The position numbers and the translations under genes are program-made. From an uncultured Eubacterium sp. (GTDB lineage Bacteria; Bacillota_A; Clostridia; Lachnospirales; Lachnospiraceae): 7,213 nucleotides of DNA. This document shows positions 1 to 7,213 of this stretch, in pieces (within the stretch, counting starts at the first letter, position 1; each line of letters starts with the position of its first letter). The stretch spans positions 2,412-9,624 of the forward strand of contig CAQBGY010000105.1 in assembly GCA_948759685.1 (NCBI GenBank), in the 5' to 3' direction. The notes beneath the pieces are model-generated. The model was not told where the DNA came from. It ran no database searches and saw only the letters and a list, made by a program, of their open reading frames with translations.

Positions 1-216
1 GGCTGAACCCACGATTGGCATTGGCATAAATGAAAGACTGATAGGTCTTTCGTCATATCTCTCTATCATCTCTTCACTATACCCTCCATCCTTTGCCACA
101 TGACTTAACAATTCCTTATGATATAAAGGTATGTTATAGTGCTCTGCCAGTTTTTGTGCAATAATATGACCTCCGCTGCCAAACTCTCTTCCGATTGCAA
201 TAATTACCTGTTTCAT
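1..216 (-). CDS. Cytidylate kinase-like family protein, N-terminal 72 residues (cut by window edge)
   Basis: Seen: an open frame starts at the ATG complementary to 214-216 and runs off the low-coordinate edge, giving 72 residues. A perfect AGGAGG (complement of 225-230) sits 8 nt upstream of the ATG and fixes the start. The N-terminus reads MKQVIIAIGREFGSGG (residues 1-16), followed by an amphipathic helix (QKLAEHYNIP) and LYHKELLSHVA. Known: the block I-x-I-G-R-E-F-G-S-G-G, then a helix, then 'IPxYxKEL', is the signature start of the cytidylate-kinase-like P-loop family common in Clostridia. These are about 200 residues long, and the glycine-rich loop lacks the usual Lys of a Walker A motif. 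Inference: a cytoplasmic nucleotide-binding protein, probably a nucleoside-monophosphate-kinase relative; the true substrate is not established by the family name. It has its own plausible promoter at 293-321, so it need not belong to the transporter operon. I am confident of the family and not of the activity. Confidence 0.85.
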   Translation of the reverse strand, partial: MKQVIIAIGREFGSGGHIIAQKLAEHYNIPLYHKELLSHVAKDGGYSEEMIERYDERPISLSFMPMPIVGSA

Positions 217-242
217 TGTCACACCCTCCTACTCATTATATT

Positions 243-254
243 CTGAATATTCAG
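243..254. repeat. 12-bp perfect palindrome in the leader of the kinase-like gene
   Basis: The plus strand reads CTGAATATTCAG, which equals its own reverse complement, with no further pairing on either side. It sits between the candidate promoter (293-321) and the ribosome site (225-230), a position suited to a roadblock operator. No regulator is identified and a palindrome of this size can occur by chance in AT-rich DNA, so any function is speculative. Confidence 0.3.
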
Positions 255-292
255 CATTTATTTCTAATCCGTACCTACTATTCTTATATAAA

Positions 293-321
293 ATTATATC
301 ATAAAATCACATAAACATAAA
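293..321 (-). promoter_or_regulatory. Candidate extended -10 promoter for the cytidylate kinase-like gene
   Basis: On the minus strand a perfect TATAAT (complement of 293-298) is preceded by TGA, giving the extended -10 motif TGnTATAAT. A weak -35, TTTATG (complement of 316-321, matching TTGACA at three positions), lies exactly 17 nt upstream. Transcription would start near 286, leaving a leader of about 70 nt before the ATG at 216. The promoter lies wholly between the transporter stop codon and the kinase-like gene. I saw no convincing hairpin-plus-T-tract terminator for the transporter operon in the 112-nt gap, so read-through remains possible. Confidence 0.5.
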
Positions 322-328
322 CCGGAAT

Positions 329-2392
329 TTATCTTAGGAACCGGACACTGCCCTTAACGATTAACTTGTCAAAAACAATAAACATTGCCGGCAGAATACA
401 TATTACGCATAACATACTGACAACTGCTCCTCTTGCCATAAGGAGACACAAGGAACTAATCATATCAATACTGGAATAAACACCAACTCCAAAAGTCGCT
501 CCAAAGAATGTACAGGCACTTACAATAACAGATTTTATTGTAGCTGTCAGTGCATCTTTTGCTGCCAGCTTTCTATCCTTGCCCATTCTGCGTTCTACTT
601 TATATCTGTTCGTCATCAATATTGCATAATCTACTGTTGCGCCGAGCTGTATTGTACCAATAACAATAGAAGCAATAAATGGCAACACTGCTCCTGTATA
701 ATAAGGAATTCCCATATTTATGAAAATAGCAAATTCAATGACAAAAACCAATATTACCGGTAATGTAATCGATTTAAATACCAGTGCAATAATTAAAAAT
801 ATCAGGAATATGGATACAAAACTTACTGTGGCAAAATCTTTGTTTGTAATCTTAATCAAGTCTCTGGTGCATGCCGCCTCACCTACCAGCATGCCACTTT
901 TATCATATTTCTTTATTATCTTTTCCACTTCATTACACTGGGTGTTTGCTTCGTCCGAGCCGGTTTTATACTCTGACATAAATACCATCATCTCATGTTT
1001 ATCACTTTTTAATTCACTCGTTAGTTTCTCAGGAATAAAAGAATCCGGCACAGAGCCATCCAGAAAACTTTCCATTCCAAGTGCTGTCTGGACTCCGTCT
1101 ACTTTCTTCACTTTATCCAAAAGATTCTTTATATCTTTCTTTGGTGTTTCGGTGCTTAACAGAATAATATTTGCTGACCCTAATTCATAATCCTTGGATA
1201 ATCTATTTTGTGCCGAAACGCTCTCTAAACTGTCAGGCAGACTTAAAGACAAATCATAATAAACCTTTGCATTCCGTTCTCCATATATGGCAGGAATTAA
1301 TAATAGTACAAATAAAACAACAAATACCTTATAGTGCTTTGTAATAAATCCGGGTATTCTCTTAAAATCAGGCAGTAACTGTCTGTGTTTTGTTTTCTGT
1401 ATTGCCTTATCAAACACCAAAATCATAGACGGTAATATCGTTACACACGCAATGACTCCTAAAACAACTCCCTTTGCCATTACTACACCAAGATCCAGTC
1501 CCAGCGTAAAACTCATAAAACAGAGTGCAATAAATCCTGCCACCGTTGTTATAGAACTTCCTACTACGGATGAAATCGTTGCTGTGATAGCATTAGACAT
1601 CGCTTTTTTATTATTACCACCATTTATTTCTAACTGTTCCTCATAACTATGCCACAAAAATATGGAATAATCCATCGTGACACCCAGCTGTAAAACTGCT
1701 GCCAGTGCTTTTGTAATATAAGAAATTTCTCCTACAATAAAGTTACTTCCCAAGTTATAGACAATCGCCATTCCAATGCTTAGCAGGAAAAATATTGGAA
1801 TCATAAAAGAATCCATTAGAAGTGATAAAATAATCACTGACAACAATACCGCAATACATACATAAATCGGAGTCTCGTGTTCTGATAAATCTTTTGTATC
1901 TGTTACAATTGCAGAAATTCCACTAATCATACACTGATGCTTTGTCACTGAACGGATTTCTTTGATGGCTTTCATTGTACCGTCACCGGAACTTGTATCA
2001 TCAAATATTACCATCATTATGGTAGAGGTTCCCTTATTAAAAGCATCATACACGTTATCCGGAAGCATTGTTTTTGGTATCCCGGAATCTGCGAAGCTGT
2101 CATACCACAACACTTTACTGACATGGTCCACCTTTTTCATCTTTTCAATCAGTTTCGATACATTGTTATCATCCATCTTGTCTACCATAACAATGCCAAA
2201 TGCCCCTGCATGAAACTCATCCATCAGAATATCCTGACCTTCCATCGTATCTATACCATCCGGAAGATAATATAACAAATCATAATTTACTCTTGTATTG
2301 AAATAACCGATGGCAGCCGGAATCAGCAGTAAAATGCTGACAATCAGAATCACATGTCTGGCTTTTACAATACGCTCTCCTAACTTTTTCAT
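329..2392 (-). CDS. RND superfamily transporter, MMPL type (687 residues)
   Basis: Seen: a duplicated architecture. Each half has one membrane segment (about residues 13-31 and 354-370), a soluble outside loop of about 140-150 residues, then a cluster of five membrane segments (about 174-327 and 519-675). The halves are visibly related: NYDLLYYLPDG (36-46) matches YYDLSLSLPDS (378-388), and SFADSGIPKTMLPD (99-112) matches SFLDGSVPDSFIPE (442-455). Each half keeps an Asp-Tyr pair in its fourth membrane segment, within LGVTMDYSIFL (D241-Y242) and LGATVDYAILM (D588-Y589). Known: these DY pairs are the proton-relay residues of MmpL-type RND proteins. Inference: an intact proton-motive-force-driven exporter or lipid/envelope transporter in the cytoplasmic membrane; the substrate cannot be read. 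It is shorter than MmpL3 because it lacks the long C-terminal tail. The start at 2392 is supported by AAGGAG 10 nt upstream, overlapping the lipoprotein stop codon, which implies co-expression and probably translational coupling. Confidence 0.92.
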   Translation of the reverse strand: MKKLGERIVKARHVILIVSILLLIPAAIGYFNTRVNYDLLYYLPDGIDTMEGQDILMDEFHAGAFGIVMVDKMDDNNVSKLIEKMKKVDHVSKVLWYDSFADSGIPKTMLPDNVYDAFNKGTSTIMMVIFDDTSSGDGTMKAIKEIRSVTKHQCMISGISAIVTDTKDLSEHETPIYVCIAVLLSVIILSLLMDSFMIPIFFLLSIGMAIVYNLGSNFIVGEISYITKALAAVLQLGVTMDYSIFLWHSYEEQLEINGGNNKKAMSNAITATISSVVGSSITTVAGFIALCFMSFTLGLDLGVVMAKGVVLGVIACVTILPSMILVFDKAIQKTKHRQLLPDFKRIPGFITKHYKVFVVLFVLLLIPAIYGERNAKVYYDLSLSLPDSLESVSAQNRLSKDYELGSANIILLSTETPKKDIKNLLDKVKKVDGVQTALGMESFLDGSVPDSFIPEKLTSELKSDKHEMMVFMSEYKTGSDEANTQCNEVEKIIKKYDKSGMLVGEAACTRDLIKITNKDFATVSFVSIFLIFLIIALVFKSITLPVILVFVIEFAIFINMGIPYYTGAVLPFIASIVIGTIQLGATVDYAILMTNRYKVERRMGKDRKLAAKDALTATIKSVIVSACTFFGATFGVGVYSSIDMISSLCLLMARGAVVSMLCVICILPAMFIVFDKLIVKGSVRFLR

Positions 2393-2402
2393 ATGCTACC
2401 AA

Positions 2403-2408
2403 CTCCTT
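2403..2408 (-). promoter_or_regulatory. Ribosome binding site of the transporter overlapping the lipoprotein stop codon
   Basis: AAGGAG on the minus strand (complement of 2403-2408) shares its first base with the TAA stop of the lipoprotein gene (complement of 2408-2410). It lies 10 nt before the transporter ATG. A ribosome ending on the lipoprotein would sit on this site, which favours coupled synthesis of the two proteins. Confidence 0.7.
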
Positions 2409-4696
2409 TACTTGTCTGCCTTAATTTCTGCTGTTTTAAAAACAAACTTTACACTGCCTGTCATATTTTTATTCATTCCGGAAAATGATTGATATGATTT
2501 TCCGTTATTTAAAATCTCTTCTACCGCATCAATAATTTCCTTTGTATCATTACCGAAAATATCTGTAATCTTGCTGATACCATCTTTATTCAGCTTTATC
2601 ACACCATTTTTTAGTGTCTTTGTTCCATCAAATAAAGTTACAATACCAGAATCAAGAGTTCCTGTTCCCTTAGCCAAAGTCTTTGCACCTTTACTGATTT
2701 TTCCTGCTCCCGAATCTACTGTTTGAATACCGGCTTTTACCTGAGGACTTGCTTTACCAAGTTTCTTGTTCATTTCACCCGTTCCGTCCGTTAAAGATTT
2801 CATTCCGTCATTTAATGTATCTGCCCCCGACTTTAATTTTCCAGTACCATCTGACAATGATTTTGCTCCACCGAATAGTGTTTTGGTTCCCTCTGCCATC
2901 TGTCCTGTACCAGCTGCCAATGTTCCTGCACCAGTATTTAATGTCTTTATTCCTGCATAAAGCGTTCCAATACCAGTATTCAGACTTGCAGTTCCATTTT
3001 CCAAAGCTGCCATTCCCTCTAACAGTGCTTTCATTTCTGCTGCTTTACCTGCAATCTGTGTCTCAAACGTAGATTTTACAGTCTCCAATGTCTGAACACT
3101 ATAATATGCCTGCACCAACTGATAATACGCTTTTGTATTTAACCCCTTTGTCTGAAGAACAGCACTCAGTTCCATTCCACCTGTAACTGCTGTATTGATT
3201 CCCTCTACCGTCTGATTCAGTGCTTCCTTACTTGATATAGCACCACCAGTGGCACTTCCGACCTGTTTGATAACTCCATCAATCTGTGCCTGTATGGAAT
3301 CCGGAGTTCCCTGCAACGTTCCTGCCAGTTCTTTTACTCCGGCATTTGCTTCTTTTGCTCCCTGTGCCAATGCCTTTGCACCGTTGTTAAGTCCCTGGCT
3401 TTTCACATTTCCATGACTATCCTTTACATCTTCAAACGCTGCCTGTGCAGTTTTTAATCCTGTCGATAAAGAACCCGCACCTTCATTTACCTTCGCTGCT
3501 GCGCTGTTTAACTCTTTTGCTCCACTGTTTAAACTTTTTGCTCCACCATCCAGCTGTTTGGCTGCTGTTTTTACACTCTGTGTACCTTTATATAACTTTT
3601 TTGCACCTTTATCTGCTGTCCGTACACCACTTAACAATGCTTTGTTAAATGTTTCATAACTGCCTAATAATTTCGTCGTTCCCAAATATAAATCTGCTGT
3701 ATATTTTGCAATATCTTTTGCACCATCATTAATCTTGAGAGAGCCATTTTTTAATTCTCCTGCACCTTCCTGAATGTCCCCTGCGCCCTTTTCTAATTGG
3801 TCCGTTCCATCTGTCAACTCAGCCATCTTATCTTCTATATCTGAAAAATCTAACGCATCTTCTAAATTCATATCACCGATTTCTGATGTTGCAATTGTAA
3901 GTGCCATATTCATTTCAAAATCTTTAACATCGGCTGTAATTGTAAAAGATTCCGGAATATCAATATCCTTCATTAATTCTTCTGCTTTGCCCGCTTTTGC
4001 AATCAGATGATCTTTAAATCCCGGAGCCCCATATCCTATAACAATCGATGAATCATCATAATCAATCACTTTTCCATTTTCTACTTTTACATTTGTAAAA
4101 TTATCACCAAGAACGATTCCTGTTAGTGCTATAAACGGAACAAACTCTCCCTCATCAGCTGAATTATTGATATAATCATAGACAATTTTTACTGTCCCGC
4201 TTTTTCCTGCCATCTGCTCCGGTGCTGTCTTTTCTCCATCAATATAATAACTTACGTCGAACTTAACAGGAGTTTCTTTCGATGTTGTTCCCTGATAAGA
4301 AATATCCTCTCCTTTATTTTCCCAGATTAATTTTCCATTATCAGAAGTAAACTTTTCATCACCCTTTAAATTTTTTATATTATCAAGATCTGAAACATCA
4401 CTAATATTATTTTTATCTGAAACTTTTAACACATTGCTGACCGTTGTCTTTGCAACTGTTCCGTCTGCATTCATCTCAACAAATACTGTTTCTTTCTTTT
4501 CTGTATCTGCACCATCTCCAATTTTACTGTTCAGCAGTGCTTCCACCCTGTTTACACTGACTGTCGCCTCTACTGTTGCTTCCTTTTTATCGGAGTTCTT
4601 TTTCTCTGTATCAGAACTTCCGCAACCAGCCAGACACCATGCTGACATTGTCATTACTAAAACTAAACTGATTCCCTTATGAACATATTTCTTCAT
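2408..4696 (-). CDS. Leu-x-x-Gly heptad-repeat lipoprotein, YhgE/EsaA-like extracellular partner of the MMPL transporter (762 residues)
   Basis: Seen: a short basic start (MKKYVHK), a hydrophobic stretch (10-21) and a lipobox L22-A-G-C25, so residue 25 should be lipidated after signal peptidase II cleavage. A Lys/Asp/Ser-rich linker (26-40) follows. A mixed beta-type domain (about 45-275) contains GDEKF, SYYIDGEK and AGKSGTVKIVYDY. From about 293 to 706 the chain is mostly x-x-x-Leu-x-x-Gly heptads, interrupted by a helical, Tyr-rich segment (about 515-560). The tail ends GSVKFVFKTAEIKADK with no membrane segment. Known: this heptad type is typical of YhgE/Pip and EsaA/YueB proteins, which are membrane proteins, and similar heptad proteins occur beside MMPL genes in Clostridia (recall, not searched). 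Inference: a lipid-anchored, elongated extracytoplasmic rod that works with the transporter starting 15 nt downstream. The start at 4696 follows AAGGAGAG with 9-nt spacing. No enzyme motif is visible. Confidence 0.88.
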   Translation of the reverse strand: MKKYVHKGISLVLVMTMSAWCLAGCGSSDTEKKNSDKKEATVEATVSVNRVEALLNSKIGDGADTEKKETVFVEMNADGTVAKTTVSNVLKVSDKNNISDVSDLDNIKNLKGDEKFTSDNGKLIWENKGEDISYQGTTSKETPVKFDVSYYIDGEKTAPEQMAGKSGTVKIVYDYINNSADEGEFVPFIALTGIVLGDNFTNVKVENGKVIDYDDSSIVIGYGAPGFKDHLIAKAGKAEELMKDIDIPESFTITADVKDFEMNMALTIATSEIGDMNLEDALDFSDIEDKMAELTDGTDQLEKGAGDIQEGAGELKNGSLKINDGAKDIAKYTADLYLGTTKLLGSYETFNKALLSGVRTADKGAKKLYKGTQSVKTAAKQLDGGAKSLNSGAKELNSAAAKVNEGAGSLSTGLKTAQAAFEDVKDSHGNVKSQGLNNGAKALAQGAKEANAGVKELAGTLQGTPDSIQAQIDGVIKQVGSATGGAISSKEALNQTVEGINTAVTGGMELSAVLQTKGLNTKAYYQLVQAYYSVQTLETVKSTFETQIAGKAAEMKALLEGMAALENGTASLNTGIGTLYAGIKTLNTGAGTLAAGTGQMAEGTKTLFGGAKSLSDGTGKLKSGADTLNDGMKSLTDGTGEMNKKLGKASPQVKAGIQTVDSGAGKISKGAKTLAKGTGTLDSGIVTLFDGTKTLKNGVIKLNKDGISKITDIFGNDTKEIIDAVEEILNNGKSYQSFSGMNKNMTGSVKFVFKTAEIKADK
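2603..2974 (-). repeat. C-terminal Leu-x-x-Gly heptad arrays of the lipoprotein (about residues 575-698)
   Basis: Glycines fall exactly every seven residues at 575, 582, 589, 596, 603, 610, 617, 624, 631 and 638. After a break around KASPQ (648-652) they resume every seven residues at 656, 663, 670, 677, 684, 691 and 698. The 18-residue step across the break changes the heptad register. Most units have Leu (or Met, Ile, Val) three residues before the Gly. At DNA level these are diverged 21-nt units with varied synonymous codons. Confidence 0.85.
3338..3808 (-). repeat. N-terminal Leu-x-x-Gly heptad arrays of the lipoprotein (about residues 297-453)
   Basis: Glycines are spaced by exactly seven at residues 297, 304, 311, 318 and 325. 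A second run at 357, 364, 371, 385, 392, 406 and 413 has Ala replacing Gly at 378 and 399. A third short run lies at 439, 446 and 453. The runs are separated by helix-breaking or aromatic stretches. This array and the C-terminal array flank the Tyr-rich helical segment, a layout that would suit two arms of one long hairpin. Confidence 0.75.
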
Positions 4697-4752
4697 AACA
4701 AAATACTCTCCTTTTATTTTTTTCTACAGTACAGTATACATTCGTAAATAAA

Positions 4753-4821
4753 AAAAGCATTATACATTTTCATACAAGGGCATGTTTTTTATACGCTTGT
4801 ATGAAATTGTATAACGTTTTT
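4753..4821. promoter_or_regulatory. Long inverted repeat upstream of the lipoprotein gene: candidate TetR operator, alternatively a terminator
   Basis: Seen: the arm at 4758-4778 pairs with the arm at 4796-4816 over 21 bp with two mismatches (4759/4815 and 4767/4807). Pairing extends outward through A/T bases to 4753 and 4821 after one more mismatch. The spacer is 17 bp. Each arm contains two copies of the octamer T(C/T)ATACA(A/T) exactly 10 bp apart. Read on the minus strand, the second arm is followed by C then seven T, so the same element could form a long, AT-rich intrinsic terminator for the tetR unit. Inference: the placement between a TetR gene and its likely target, and the helical phasing of the motif, favour an operator; both roles may coexist. 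Confidence 0.6.
4759..4788 (-). promoter_or_regulatory. Weak candidate promoter for the lipoprotein-transporter operon
   Basis: A perfect TATAAT lies on the minus strand (complement of 4759-4764), inside one arm of the inverted repeat. The only -35-like sequence at acceptable spacing is AAAACA (complement of 4783-4788, 18 nt away), which matches TTGACA at three positions. Transcription from here would start near 4752 and leave a leader of about 55 nt. A protein on the inverted repeat would cover this -10. The poor -35 keeps confidence low, and an activator-dependent promoter is possible. Confidence 0.3.
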
Positions 4822-4838
4822 CTATTTTGTATGACATT

Positions 4839-4912: not shown

Positions 4913-5491
4913 TTACTTTTGTCCTTCTTTCTTGCGATACATATAGATTTCATATCCCAGTTCTTCTGTTCTGAGAATAATATGCTGAAGTAATACTGCT
5001 AATTCATCTTCTTTTTCTTTCATGCCTTTTAATGCCCAGTCAACAATCACACCTGTCAATCCATATGCAAAAAATCTTGCATAGATGTCCTGTTCTTTCT
5101 CACTCAAACGGCTGTACAAATCCAAATCAATAATCGCTTTTTTGAATAATTCAGCAAATATCCTGTTACTATACTCAGCAAAAAAGTTATTGGAAGATTT
5201 AATTGTATTCATAAAAAATGATTTCTGCTGTTTCATATATTTAAACAACTCTACTAATTTTTCAACCCAGTTTTCAAACGTTAAATCCTCGGTCAGCGGA
5301 ATAAATAAATCTTGATTATAAATCCAGCTCAGCAACTCATATTTATCATTAAAATGATAATAGAACGTCTGTCTGTTCACACCGCAACGGTCTGTTATAT
5401 CTGCAACAGTAATTTTATCTAATATTTTTACAGCACCTAATTCTTTTAAACTCTGTGCCAACGCTTTTTTGGTTATATTGGAATTTGCCAT
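4913..5491 (-). CDS. TetR/AcrR family transcriptional regulator (192 residues)
   Basis: Seen: an N-terminal helix-turn-helix in residues 10-48, with ITVADITDRCGVNRQTFYYHF (27-47) and then DKYELL. This is the standard TetR DNA-binding signature. The C-terminal helical domain (about 65-180) contains FFAYGLTGVIVDWALKGM (140-157), typical of the TetR_C_8/DhaS-like subgroup. Length is normal for the family. The start at 5491 follows AGGAGG (complement of 5497-5502) with 5-nt spacing, and the gene begins 12 nt after the HAD stop. Inference: a cytoplasmic, probably ligand-responsive regulator of the lipoprotein-transporter pair downstream, acting on the repeats at 4734-4834. Unlike most TetR genes beside efflux pumps, it is co-directional with its presumed target. 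It has no operator-sized gap upstream, so classical autoregulation from a divergent promoter is not available. The ligand is unknown. Confidence 0.9.
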   Translation of the reverse strand: MANSNITKKALAQSLKELGAVKILDKITVADITDRCGVNRQTFYYHFNDKYELLSWIYNQDLFIPLTEDLTFENWVEKLVELFKYMKQQKSFFMNTIKSSNNFFAEYSNRIFAELFKKAIIDLDLYSRLSEKEQDIYARFFAYGLTGVIVDWALKGMKEKEDELAVLLQHIILRTEELGYEIYMYRKKEGQK

Positions 5492-5503
5492 AATATCCTC
5501 CTG

Positions 5504-6307
5504 TTATAATATGTATTTTTCAATGACTTTGGCGATACCATCTTCATTATTGGATGTTGTTATATAATCCGCTTCTTTTTTCACCGCATCTACTGCGTTT
5601 TCCATCGCAACACCAACCCCTGCATACTGAATCATGGACAAATCGTTAAACCCGTCACCGCAGGCGATAATATTTTCTCTGGAAATCCCCAATTGGGATG
5701 TTAAAACCTTGATTGATGCCGCTTTATCAATCCCTTTCGGAACTACTTCTATAAAATAATCACAGGAACGATAAATACCGAGTTCCCGTCCAAACTTTTC
5801 TGATAATATTTTCTCATGATATTCTGAGAGTTCCGGTTCAACGGTAAAAAGACATTTGTTTGGATTATAGTTTACATATTTTACGACGTCTGTCATATAT
5901 GCCGGAATTTTATTGATAAACATAGCTTCCATTGCAATATATTTATCCATTCTCGTAGCTACTAAAGCATGATTTGCATCATAAGTTATCAATCCTAAAT
6001 TATTCTGTCTGGCATATCTAAGTAATTCCGGAATATATTTTCTATCCATTACATTTTCAAAAACTGTTTCCTTCGTTTTCCAGTTAATAATCTTACCACC
6101 ATTAAAAGACAATATGTATCCACCGTATTTCTCCAATTCCAGTTCTTTTGCTACAGGTACCATTCCCGGTGTAGGGCGTCCTGATGCCAGAGCCACAATA
6201 TGTCCCTGTTTCTGAATTTCCATCAAAGCATCTTTTGTCTTTGGTGTTATCTTCTTTTCATCATTGGTAAGTGTTCCATCTAAGTCTAAAAAAATTATTT
6301 TCTGCAT
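5504..6307 (-). CDS. Cof-type HAD-IIB family phosphatase (267 residues)
   Basis: Seen: all four HAD motifs are intact. Motif I is DLDGT (nucleophile D8, acid/base D10). Motif II is SGRP (S42-P45). Motif III is a Lys in PKGIDK (K191 likely). Motif IV is GDGFND (D218 and D222, Mg2+ binding). The region between motifs II and III (about 85-185) is the C2B cap that defines subclass IIB. Known: Cof/YidA-type enzymes are cytoplasmic Mg2+-dependent phosphatases acting on sugar phosphates, nucleotide phosphates or flavin/PLP phosphates; sequence alone does not give the substrate. The length is typical. The start at 6307 follows AAGGA with 7-nt spacing, and that ribosome site abuts the TAA of the GtrA gene, while its own TAA lies next to the ribosome site of tetR. 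It therefore sits in a tight GtrA-HAD-TetR unit. There is no sign of damage or foreign composition. Confidence 0.93.
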   Translation of the reverse strand: MQKIIFLDLDGTLTNDEKKITPKTKDALMEIQKQGHIVALASGRPTPGMVPVAKELELEKYGGYILSFNGGKIINWKTKETVFENVMDRKYIPELLRYARQNNLGLITYDANHALVATRMDKYIAMEAMFINKIPAYMTDVVKYVNYNPNKCLFTVEPELSEYHEKILSEKFGRELGIYRSCDYFIEVVPKGIDKAASIKVLTSQLGISRENIIACGDGFNDLSMIQYAGVGVAMENAVDAVKKEADYITTSNNEDGIAKVIEKYIL

Positions 6308-6319
6308 CTGTATTTCCTT

Positions 6320-6730
6320 TTACTTTTCCTTTGTGTTGATTTCTTTTCCAAATACGATAAACCTATCGTAAAGATATTCTGTAACAAAATTAAGCAGCAT
6401 ATTTAGTGCTGTCACCAGATAATCATTCCATCCTAACGTTTCCACGAGATAACTTCCACCAATCGTTGTTGCCGGTGTAAATATCATATAAAAAACCGCC
6501 ACCTTTATCATCGCTATAGGTATATTGTTTGCTGCCTTAAAAGTAAATTCACGATTTAATGTAAAATTCCACAAAACAGACAATATTAGTGCTGTCAGAT
6601 ACCGCGGCCAATATGGCAGTGGTGTCAATTCTGTAAGCAGTGCAAATGCCAGCATCTGTATTACTCCTGCTGAAATAGAGAATAAGGTAAATTTAATTAC
6701 CCTCATTGTTTCTTCTTTTTTTGTTGTCAT
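6320..6730 (-). CDS. GtrA family membrane protein (136 residues)
   Basis: Seen: four hydrophobic segments at about residues 12-34, 40-58, 72-92 and 101-120. There are two related polar-aromatic motifs, LWNFTLNREFTF (53-64) and LNFVTEYLYDRFIVF (113-127), which are the duplicated 'NF...R...F' signature of the GtrA family. The tail is short and charged. Known: GtrA-like proteins are small inner-membrane proteins linked to moving or modifying lipid-linked sugars for cell-surface polysaccharides, usually beside a glycosyltransferase; none is visible in this window. The ATG at 6730 has a strong AGGAGG (complement of 6736-6741) 5 nt upstream. An internal ATG at residue 9 lacks a comparable site, so the longer form is preferred. 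The HAD gene starts 12 nt after its stop. The role here is probably in the cell envelope, but the substrate is unknown. Confidence 0.9.
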   Translation of the reverse strand: MTTKKEETMRVIKFTLFSISAGVIQMLAFALLTELTPLPYWPRYLTALILSVLWNFTLNREFTFKAANNIPIAMIKVAVFYMIFTPATTIGGSYLVETLGWNDYLVTALNMLLNFVTEYLYDRFIVFGKEINTKEK

Positions 6731-6774
6731 TTGTTCCTCCTCTAAAACTGTTGATTATTTTTGCATATCTGAAA

Positions 6775-7213
6775 TTAAGTATGAAACCGGCGACGCAGTT
6801 CACGCACAAAGTCATTGCCAAGTGTCACTACACATGCTGAAAGCAAAAGTAATGCACTGCCTCCCATCACAGCCAACGCCCATCTGCTTTCTTCATGCCA
6901 TACACTAAGACCAATAACGGATCCCACTATGGCAAAGATAATCAGCAATAACATTGGAAGCATATTCTGCTTCTGCCTTTCAATATCTGTAAAAAACATC
7001 AATCCTGAAACAACAAGTCCACAAAAACACACCATTGGAACTACTTCGATTGCCCAGCCGGGTGCAAGAAGAACATCAATCAAAATTAAAAGTATACTTG
7101 TGCAGATAATAGCTTTAATAAACTGGCTGATACGATTGTACTCAACCAAATCCGGAGATAAAATTAACGTCCACGCTGTATATAATGACATTAATACAAT
7201 GATACTCCATGCC
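6775..7213 (-). CDS. Multi-spanning membrane protein, C-terminal 145 residues (cut by window edge; tentatively DUF6320-like)
   Basis: Seen: the frame is open from the high-coordinate edge to a TAA at 6775-6777. The ATG at 7191 is internal: seven more in-frame residues (AWSIIVL) precede it with no stop and no ribosome site, and they extend a hydrophobic segment. Counting from the edge, hydrophobic segments lie at about 1-17, 32-49, 53-74, 84-104 and 110-131, ending in a basic tail RELRRRFHT. That gives about five membrane spans with a cytoplasmic C-terminus by the positive-inside rule. The tail and spacing of spans resemble my recollection of the DUF6320 family, in which a zinc-ribbon N-terminus precedes the membrane domain; that N-terminus would lie outside the window, so this assignment is weak. 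The gene ends 44 nt before the GtrA gene and is probably co-transcribed with it. No catalytic motif is visible. Confidence 0.7.
   Translation of the reverse strand, partial: AWSIIVLMSLYTAWTLILSPDLVEYNRISQFIKAIICTSILLILIDVLLAPGWAIEVVPMVCFCGLVVSGLMFFTDIERQKQNMLPMLLLIIFAIVGSVIGLSVWHEESRWALAVMGGSALLLLSACVVTLGNDFVRELRRRFHT

Follow-up and report, generated by a model that had tools for sequence, protein, structure and literature searches.

We analysed a 7,213-nucleotide (nt) stretch from an uncultured Eubacterium sp. of the Lachnospiraceae (GenBank assembly GCA_948759685.1, contig CAQBGY010000105.1, positions 2,412 to 9,624), hereafter called the window, for two adjacent genes that encode an exported heptad-repeat lipoprotein (the partner) and an MMPL-family RND transporter (the pump). 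From upstream to downstream, the minus strand of the window carries the end of a DUF6320 gene, a GtrA-like membrane protein, a Cof-type HAD hydrolase, a TetR_C_8 regulator, the heptad lipoprotein, the MMPL pump and the start of a further gene. An original prediction, made from the letters of this stretch, had placed the pair at 329..4696, and both open reading frames (ORFs) were found there on the minus strand, the lipoprotein at 4696-2408 and the MMPL gene at 2392-329, with the pump 15 nt downstream. The pair and its parts are as follows:

2408..4696, minus strand: exported heptad-repeat partner protein, 762 amino acids (aa); ORF, TIGR03057 match and family alignment A1
4622..4633, minus strand: lipobox LAGC, partner residues 22-25; pattern, also present in other lipobox-bearing relatives
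3869..4516, minus strand: N-terminal beta domain (about residues 61-276), the main part of the predicted base, mu-homology-like; block means of the AlphaFold local confidence score (pLDDT) 61-93, mostly >80
2495..3844, minus strand: LxxG heptad rod (about residues 285-734), read as an antiparallel hairpin; AlphaFold model, structural matches and heptad statistics
2426..2464, minus strand: C-terminal strand (about residues 745-757), predicted to complete the base domain; model, with structural matches running over 61..757
2393..2407, minus strand: 15-nt spacer between the partner and pump genes with a ribosome-binding-like AGGAG, just after the partner stop codon
329..2392, minus strand: MMPL-family RND transporter, 687 aa; PF03176 match
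1667..1672, minus strand: first Asp-Tyr pair, D241-Y242; pump sequence
626..631, minus strand: second Asp-Tyr pair, D588-Y589; pump sequence

The 15-nt spacing and the AGGAG suggest that the two genes are co-transcribed and translationally coupled. In the window genome (2.48 Mb), TIGR03057 matches are confined to the partner lipoprotein. Second copies of the pump were also considered: the other MMPL-profile matches, named from reading their sequences, are a SecDF-like protein (L003) and an AcrB-like RND pump (L004), and are therefore not second copies.

Comparative genomics and sequence analysis brought out a conserved pairing whose gene order flips, co-divergence of the two genes, export signals on the partner and a rod that changes length in heptad units. 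Among 60 genomes of relatives the partner was matched in 36, including 21 of the 22 from the same genus. The partner comes first and the pump directly after it in all 17 same-genus loci where a pump is visible (L005, L006, L008-L022; L007 stops at a contig end, and L023-L026 do not reach the pump position), and the order is reversed, pump first and partner directly after, in all eight loci of other genera or families (L027-L034). In a class sample of 243 genomes searched with partner alignment A1 and with the pump (pump places scoring at least 303 bits), a gene with the N-terminal partner domain adjoins on the same strand in 65 of 67 pump places, window included. This count is made up of 60 places where a same-strand partner match lies no more than 1500 nt away and five loci found by an N-terminal-domain profile search of the locus (L102, L103, L105, L106 and L107); it omits the fragments G288:C229, G092:C113 and G092:C20, the last of which was among the original 68 places but lies outside the 67. 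For partner matches the adjacency table holds one or two rows per gene, among the matches listed. Of the two unpaired class places, one (G241) reflects a contig break, with the pump at the edge of C5 and the partner at the edge of C95. The pump comes first in 59 of 61 adjacent class pairs, the other two being the window and G162, although a further reading of the G162 locus has the pump first; the ORFs overlap by 4 nt in 13 of 72 pump-first loci.

The pairing extends beyond the class. A phylum sample of 219 genomes yielded 23 pump places (expectation value, E, of 8.4e-85 or better; adjacency judged by eye; G418, with another MMPL subfamily, stands outside the 23), and partner alignment A2 matched right beside the pump on the same strand in 22. 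Nineteen of these 23 genomes were new relative to the class sample, and 18 of the 19 were paired. The neighbourhood expected across Clostridia was thus recovered in both samples, and the two genes do not occur mostly one without the other. Conversely, among the matches listed, 25 partner-model matches have no MMPL neighbour; 23 of them match the heptad or C-terminal part only, and the remaining two, which have the N-domain (G241 and G158), both lie at contig ends.

Pump distances and partner N-domain distances were strongly correlated across 63 loci (r = 0.90, rank correlation 0.83, with 1000 permutations reaching at most 0.095; L069, L107 and L122 were dropped from the 66), and the nearest neighbour was identical for both proteins in 39 of the 63. 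Within GTDB family f30, both genes of G224 are close to those of the window, and both are distant in G064, G146 and G290. From these comparisons, pump and partner seem to move together and to change together.

Some loci of these samples deserve mention in their own right. Two pumps of the window subfamily without an adjacent partner (L163 from G117, L159 from G499) are natural tests of a pump working alone. L161 (1923-3872) encodes a 649-aa partner-type protein with a C-terminal hydrophobic segment in a genome without an MMPL match at 1e-40. In L164 (G508), an intact pump stands next to a partner gene that is split into two frames (2829-3263 and 3281-4519).

The partner, which had been called a lipoprotein, carries an N-terminal signal and an L-A-G-C lipobox, and the signal (residues 8-26) is its sole hydrophobic segment. 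Its heptad repeat is unmistakable: TIGR03057 matches with 94.9 bits (cut-off 18.6) in six stretches, [LIVM]xxG occurs 35 times in residues 283-744 (mean of shuffled sequences 13.4, maximum 24 in 2000), the strict LxxGxxxLxxG occurs 15 times in the rod (shuffle mean 0.09, maximum 2 in 2000) and Gly-Gly spacings peak at 7, 14, 21 and 28. The claim of about 400 heptad residues was accurate as to the repeats, which lie far above shuffles, but low as to length, the helical stretch in the model being nearer 450 residues (285-734). In this model the rod helices break near 393-435, 483-521 and 598-607, and residues 283-715 align structurally with the coiled coils of Smc5/6 and MukB. The suggested helical hairpin is backed, at the level of prediction, by two AlphaFold models, one of the window partner and one of a naturally short, 475-aa relative, so that the partner is predicted to consist of a base plus a hairpin.

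The rod varies in length. When homologues at least 50% identical are compared pairwise, 374 of the 614 gaps in the rod have a length divisible by seven. Indifferent lengths would give 1/7, although the comparisons are not independent of one another; length change in the rod thus proceeds mostly in whole heptads. In the 51 partners that could be scored, 198-570 residues separate the base profile from the C-terminal profile. At 0.15 nm per residue, a hairpin with two straight legs would then measure about 15-43 nm (about 33 nm in the window). A rod matched to the Gram-positive wall had been proposed; with such a range, wall spanning as a fixed requirement falls away and a fixed wall-length ruler is ruled out.

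The N-terminal beta domain holds 16 of the 29 invariant columns of alignment A1, and V749 and F751 of the C-terminal strand are invariant as well. By the fold criterion, the predicted models of two distant relatives have a mu-homology-like base, and the structural matches of the base, among those listed, are mu-homology domains, with the hairpin and the split base both predicted. Identity of the partner base to the mu-homology domains of AP complexes, COPI delta, FCHo, SGIP1 and Syp1 is only about 5-12%, and no adaptor-subunit Pfam family matched the partner at E <= 0.01, the threshold used for all negatives in the profile-family searches (Pfam and NCBIfam) of window proteins. In contrast to the eukaryotic domains, the partner is an extracytoplasmic bacterial protein; to our knowledge, no eukaryotic mu-homology domain has a coiled coil before its last strand. 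Going by the models, this mu-homology-like base would be the most unexpected element of the system. If it is confirmed by structure, one may ask whether the fold is older than eukaryotic coats or has arisen twice.

We next consider how partners are held at the membrane. Anchors were scored in 96 loci, of which duplicates L143 and L064 were dropped, leaving 94, and nine were cut at the locus end, leaving 85 complete partners. Only 14 of the 85 have a lipobox pattern (L008 and L066 begin behind a stop or are cut, so an absent lipobox is uninformative there). Among the 71 without one, 39 end in a C-terminal amphipathic tail (30 with a strict FWxRLLxLF-type pattern and nine with a looser one judged by eye); none of the 14 lipobox partners has such a tail. 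The lipid anchor, which had been part of the definition of the partner, is on this count ruled out as its defining feature. The FWxRLLxLF-type motif of partners that lack a lipobox, seen in L119-L149 and L102-L108, is often preceded by an acidic linker and is possibly an alternative anchor to the membrane or to the pump. Because both anchor types lie at the base, the base would be at the membrane and the hairpin would point outward.

The pump itself matches PF03176 with 187.3 bits (cut-off 20.5) in two stretches that cover both halves. Both Asp-Tyr pairs, originally described as intact, are so: D241-Y242 and D588-Y589, one per half. The proton-relay role of such pairs comes from work on MmpL3. 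From hydropathy, the two long outside loops span about 143 and 145 residues. By sequence, the nearest solved relatives are MmpL4/MmpL5; MmpL5 chains run to 964-973 aa, and the 687-aa window pump lacks the coiled-coil insertion of the MmpL5 type (about 196 residues in the second periplasmic domain).

A second MMPL subfamily shows a comparable arrangement. Its pumps (about 770-850 aa) are only distantly like the window pump, and after them lies a different exported protein (about 920-1260 aa) that has Glug-like repeats and an extended helical part poor in proline. This protein adjoins the pump in all ten unfused loci examined (L115, L118, L152-L158 and L162; nine from the class sample and one from the phylum sample, a subset of those matched), and seven of the ten have both an N-terminal and a C-terminal hydrophobic segment (the locus end truncates the L118 partner, and in L153 the readable frame begins late, some 700 nt away from the pump). 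Two genomes belonging to a single genus encode pump and partner as one fused protein, of 1912 aa (L150, 297-6035) and 2003 aa (L151, 2650-8661). In two further loci the MMPL pump, of 1402 aa (L099, 1264-5472) and 1347 aa (L100, 1129-5172), has about 790 residues inserted into its second outside loop; the L099 insertion apparently consists of repeats. These partners, fusions and insertions indicate that a large part outside the cytoplasm recurs with such MMPL pumps, whether in trans or in cis.

How does the pair compare with known systems? In two papers on mycobacterial MmpL5, a 196-residue insertion in the pump forms an antiparallel hairpin (PMC12501195, PMC12346298), three hairpins of a trimer are modelled as a tube (PMC12501195) or seen so in a relative (PMC12346298), with a length of about 12.5-13 nm, and deletion of the coiled coil abolished efflux of the tested drugs (PMC12501195, PMC12346298). 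The window pair resembles MmpL5/MmpS5 in combining an MMPL pump with an antiparallel heptad hairpin that reaches into the envelope, projection from the pump being a feature of MmpL5 and here a prediction. In MmpL5 the hairpin is an insertion in the pump, whereas here it would belong to a distinct exported protein that brings a beta base of its own; the Pfam matches in the window include no MmpS family. Periplasmic adaptors are another comparison: their halves meet in the membrane-proximal part and lipid anchors are frequent. Like the adaptors AcrA, MacA and YknX, the partner has a (predicted) helical hairpin whose length changes by heptads, and adaptors with hairpins are described in Gram-positive bacteria too (PMC4446572). 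In adaptors, lipoyl and beta-barrel domains flank the alpha hairpin; in the partner, a hairpin and a split base are predicted, and among the matches listed the base matches mu-homology domains. No HlyD/MFP family of Pfam or NCBIfam matched the partner. A small search of open-licence papers returned nothing, by title or abstract, about a hairpin protein associated with MMPL pumps in Firmicutes.

The heptads also recall other surface proteins. YueB and YhgE carry the X-X-X-Leu-X-X-Gly heptad repeat, so that the partner shares TIGR03057 with the YhgE/Pip and EsaA/YueB proteins, and both of these families have C-terminal transmembrane segments. The window partner has none, with nothing hydrophobic beyond its signal. 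Five heptad-only proteins (L111-L114 and L116) have 5-8 C-terminal hydrophobic segments each and no MMPL gene beside them in the available stretch. The kinship with EsaA/YueB that had been suggested is thus not seen beyond the heptads, and we rejected common ancestry with EsaA, YueB or YhgE beyond this repeat.

Since the pump lacks the insertion and its neighbour is predicted to carry a separate hairpin, the partner would work like the MmpL5 hairpin or a periplasmic adaptor while being a member of neither. On balance, we think it probable that the two genes make one export system, in which a proton-driven MMPL/RND pump has a dedicated extracytoplasmic partner that supplies in trans the kind of hairpin that MmpL5 has built in. 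The base, formed by the N-terminal beta domain and the last C-terminal strand, would sit at the outer face of the membrane, held by lipid in the lineage of the window and by a C-terminal amphipathic helix in many relatives. The heptad hairpin would project into the wall zone and, by analogy with MmpL5, would most likely carry hydrophobic or lipid-like cargo away from the pump. We infer the contact between partner and pump, their orientation, any oligomer or conduit and the class of cargo; that the cargo is lipid-like is a guess from the family. The original prediction thus held in part: one conserved two-component pairing and a predicted hairpin remain, but not the defining lipid anchor, the fixed wall span or the EsaA/YueB kinship. 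A bolder version, which we hold to be rather unlikely, would make these pairs trans-wall RND machines of Gram-positive bacteria, in which several copies of a separate hairpin protein, anchored by lipid or amphipathically and standing on a mu-homology-like base, form an alpha-helical tube over an MMPL oligomer for lipids or peptides. On this view, unrelated partners would have led to the same solution at least twice, and the base would be a bacterial extracytoplasmic occurrence of the adaptor fold of eukaryotic vesicle coats.

Several observations weigh against the single export system. In the genomes, the G117 pump has no partner found nearby and is a true exception in the class sample, the G499 pump and partner (the phylum exception) lie on different contigs with neither near an edge, G444 has the partner domain and no MMPL match at 1e-40, and the correlation of pump and partner distances also reflects shared species history. 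Neither lipobox nor tail is present in 32 of the 85 complete partners. The model of the window partner has a predicted template-modelling score (pTM) of 0.41, with helices interrupted in several places, and that of the short relative reaches 0.54. Rod length varies nearly threefold (198-570 residues), so that a wall-length conduit is not implied. Finally, the MmpL5 tube that serves as precedent is itself partly a model, and PMC12501195 and PMC12346298 disagree on whether it reaches the outer membrane.

Some of these points fit other readings. The hairpin could be a mere tether, which we regard as unlikely: most of the invariant columns lie in the base while the rod varies in length, MMPL pumps are linked to lipids, FarE of Staphylococcus aureus, under the TetR-family regulator FarR, being tied to phospholipid release (PMC8844917), and MmpS has been suggested to stabilise the hairpin (PMC12501195), but length changes preserve the heptad register, something that a simple tether would not require. 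It is quite improbable that the partner instead regulates the pump or envelope or gives it a structural scaffold, or that it is the substrate of the pump, such as a surface fibre put in place with the pump's help. Surface proteins with long heptad regions can indeed be surface structures and phage receptors, as YueB is. The partner's own signal peptide cuts both ways here: the pump is not needed for partner export, yet such a signal argues against the partner being the substrate; moreover, near-constant pairing with one MMPL subfamily, and fusion in another with a different partner, fit a working part better than cargo. As for an ordinary operon, in which two envelope genes share only a regulator, a TetR gene does precede the pair and TetR genes often control transporters, but this is made very improbable by conserved pairing with flipped order; the pair is kept across families and beyond the class, including loci (L014-L022) where no TetR gene was detected in the available upstream stretch.

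MMPL pumps of Gram-positive bacteria have mostly been studied alone. If nearly every such pump in Clostridia has a hairpin partner, pump-only deletions and assays miss half of the machine. A single export system of pump and partner would, if true, provide an adaptor-like part for Gram-positive cells, which have no outer membrane, show what one class of LxxG-heptad proteins is there to do, and make it possible to compare directly a hairpin in cis (MmpL5) with one in trans.

The putative regulatory region lies upstream of the partner, beyond the part covered by the original prediction:

4913..5491, minus strand: TetR-family regulator (TetR_C_8 / DhaS-like); PF14278 80.2 bits, TIGR02366 116.4 bits, below its cut-off of 129
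4746..4828, no strand assigned: intergenic inverted repeat with 38-nt arms, 79% complementary, with half-sites TCATACAA / TTGTATGA; large and imperfect, between the TetR and partner genes

A TetR gene also precedes the partner in L006-L013 and L023-L026 of the same genus; in same-genus L014-L022, it was not detected in the available upstream stretch. The inverted repeat is a candidate TetR operator: with up to 1 mismatch its half-sites recur in L005, L006 and L007, and more weakly in L008, L023 and L026, and at that stringency none occurs in L010-L013 or L025. The TetR protein probably controls the pair, by analogy with FarR and FarE of Staphylococcus aureus. There, too, an MMPL-type pump goes with a TetR-family regulator, and FarE/FarR is also linked to fatty-acid resistance; unlike in the window, farR and farE are divergently transcribed. 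Farther upstream on the same strand, window positions 5504-7212 hold the HAD-Cof hydrolase, GtrA-like and DUF6320 genes. The HAD gene also adjoins the TetR gene in close relatives L007, L008 and L035, as does the GtrA gene in L035.
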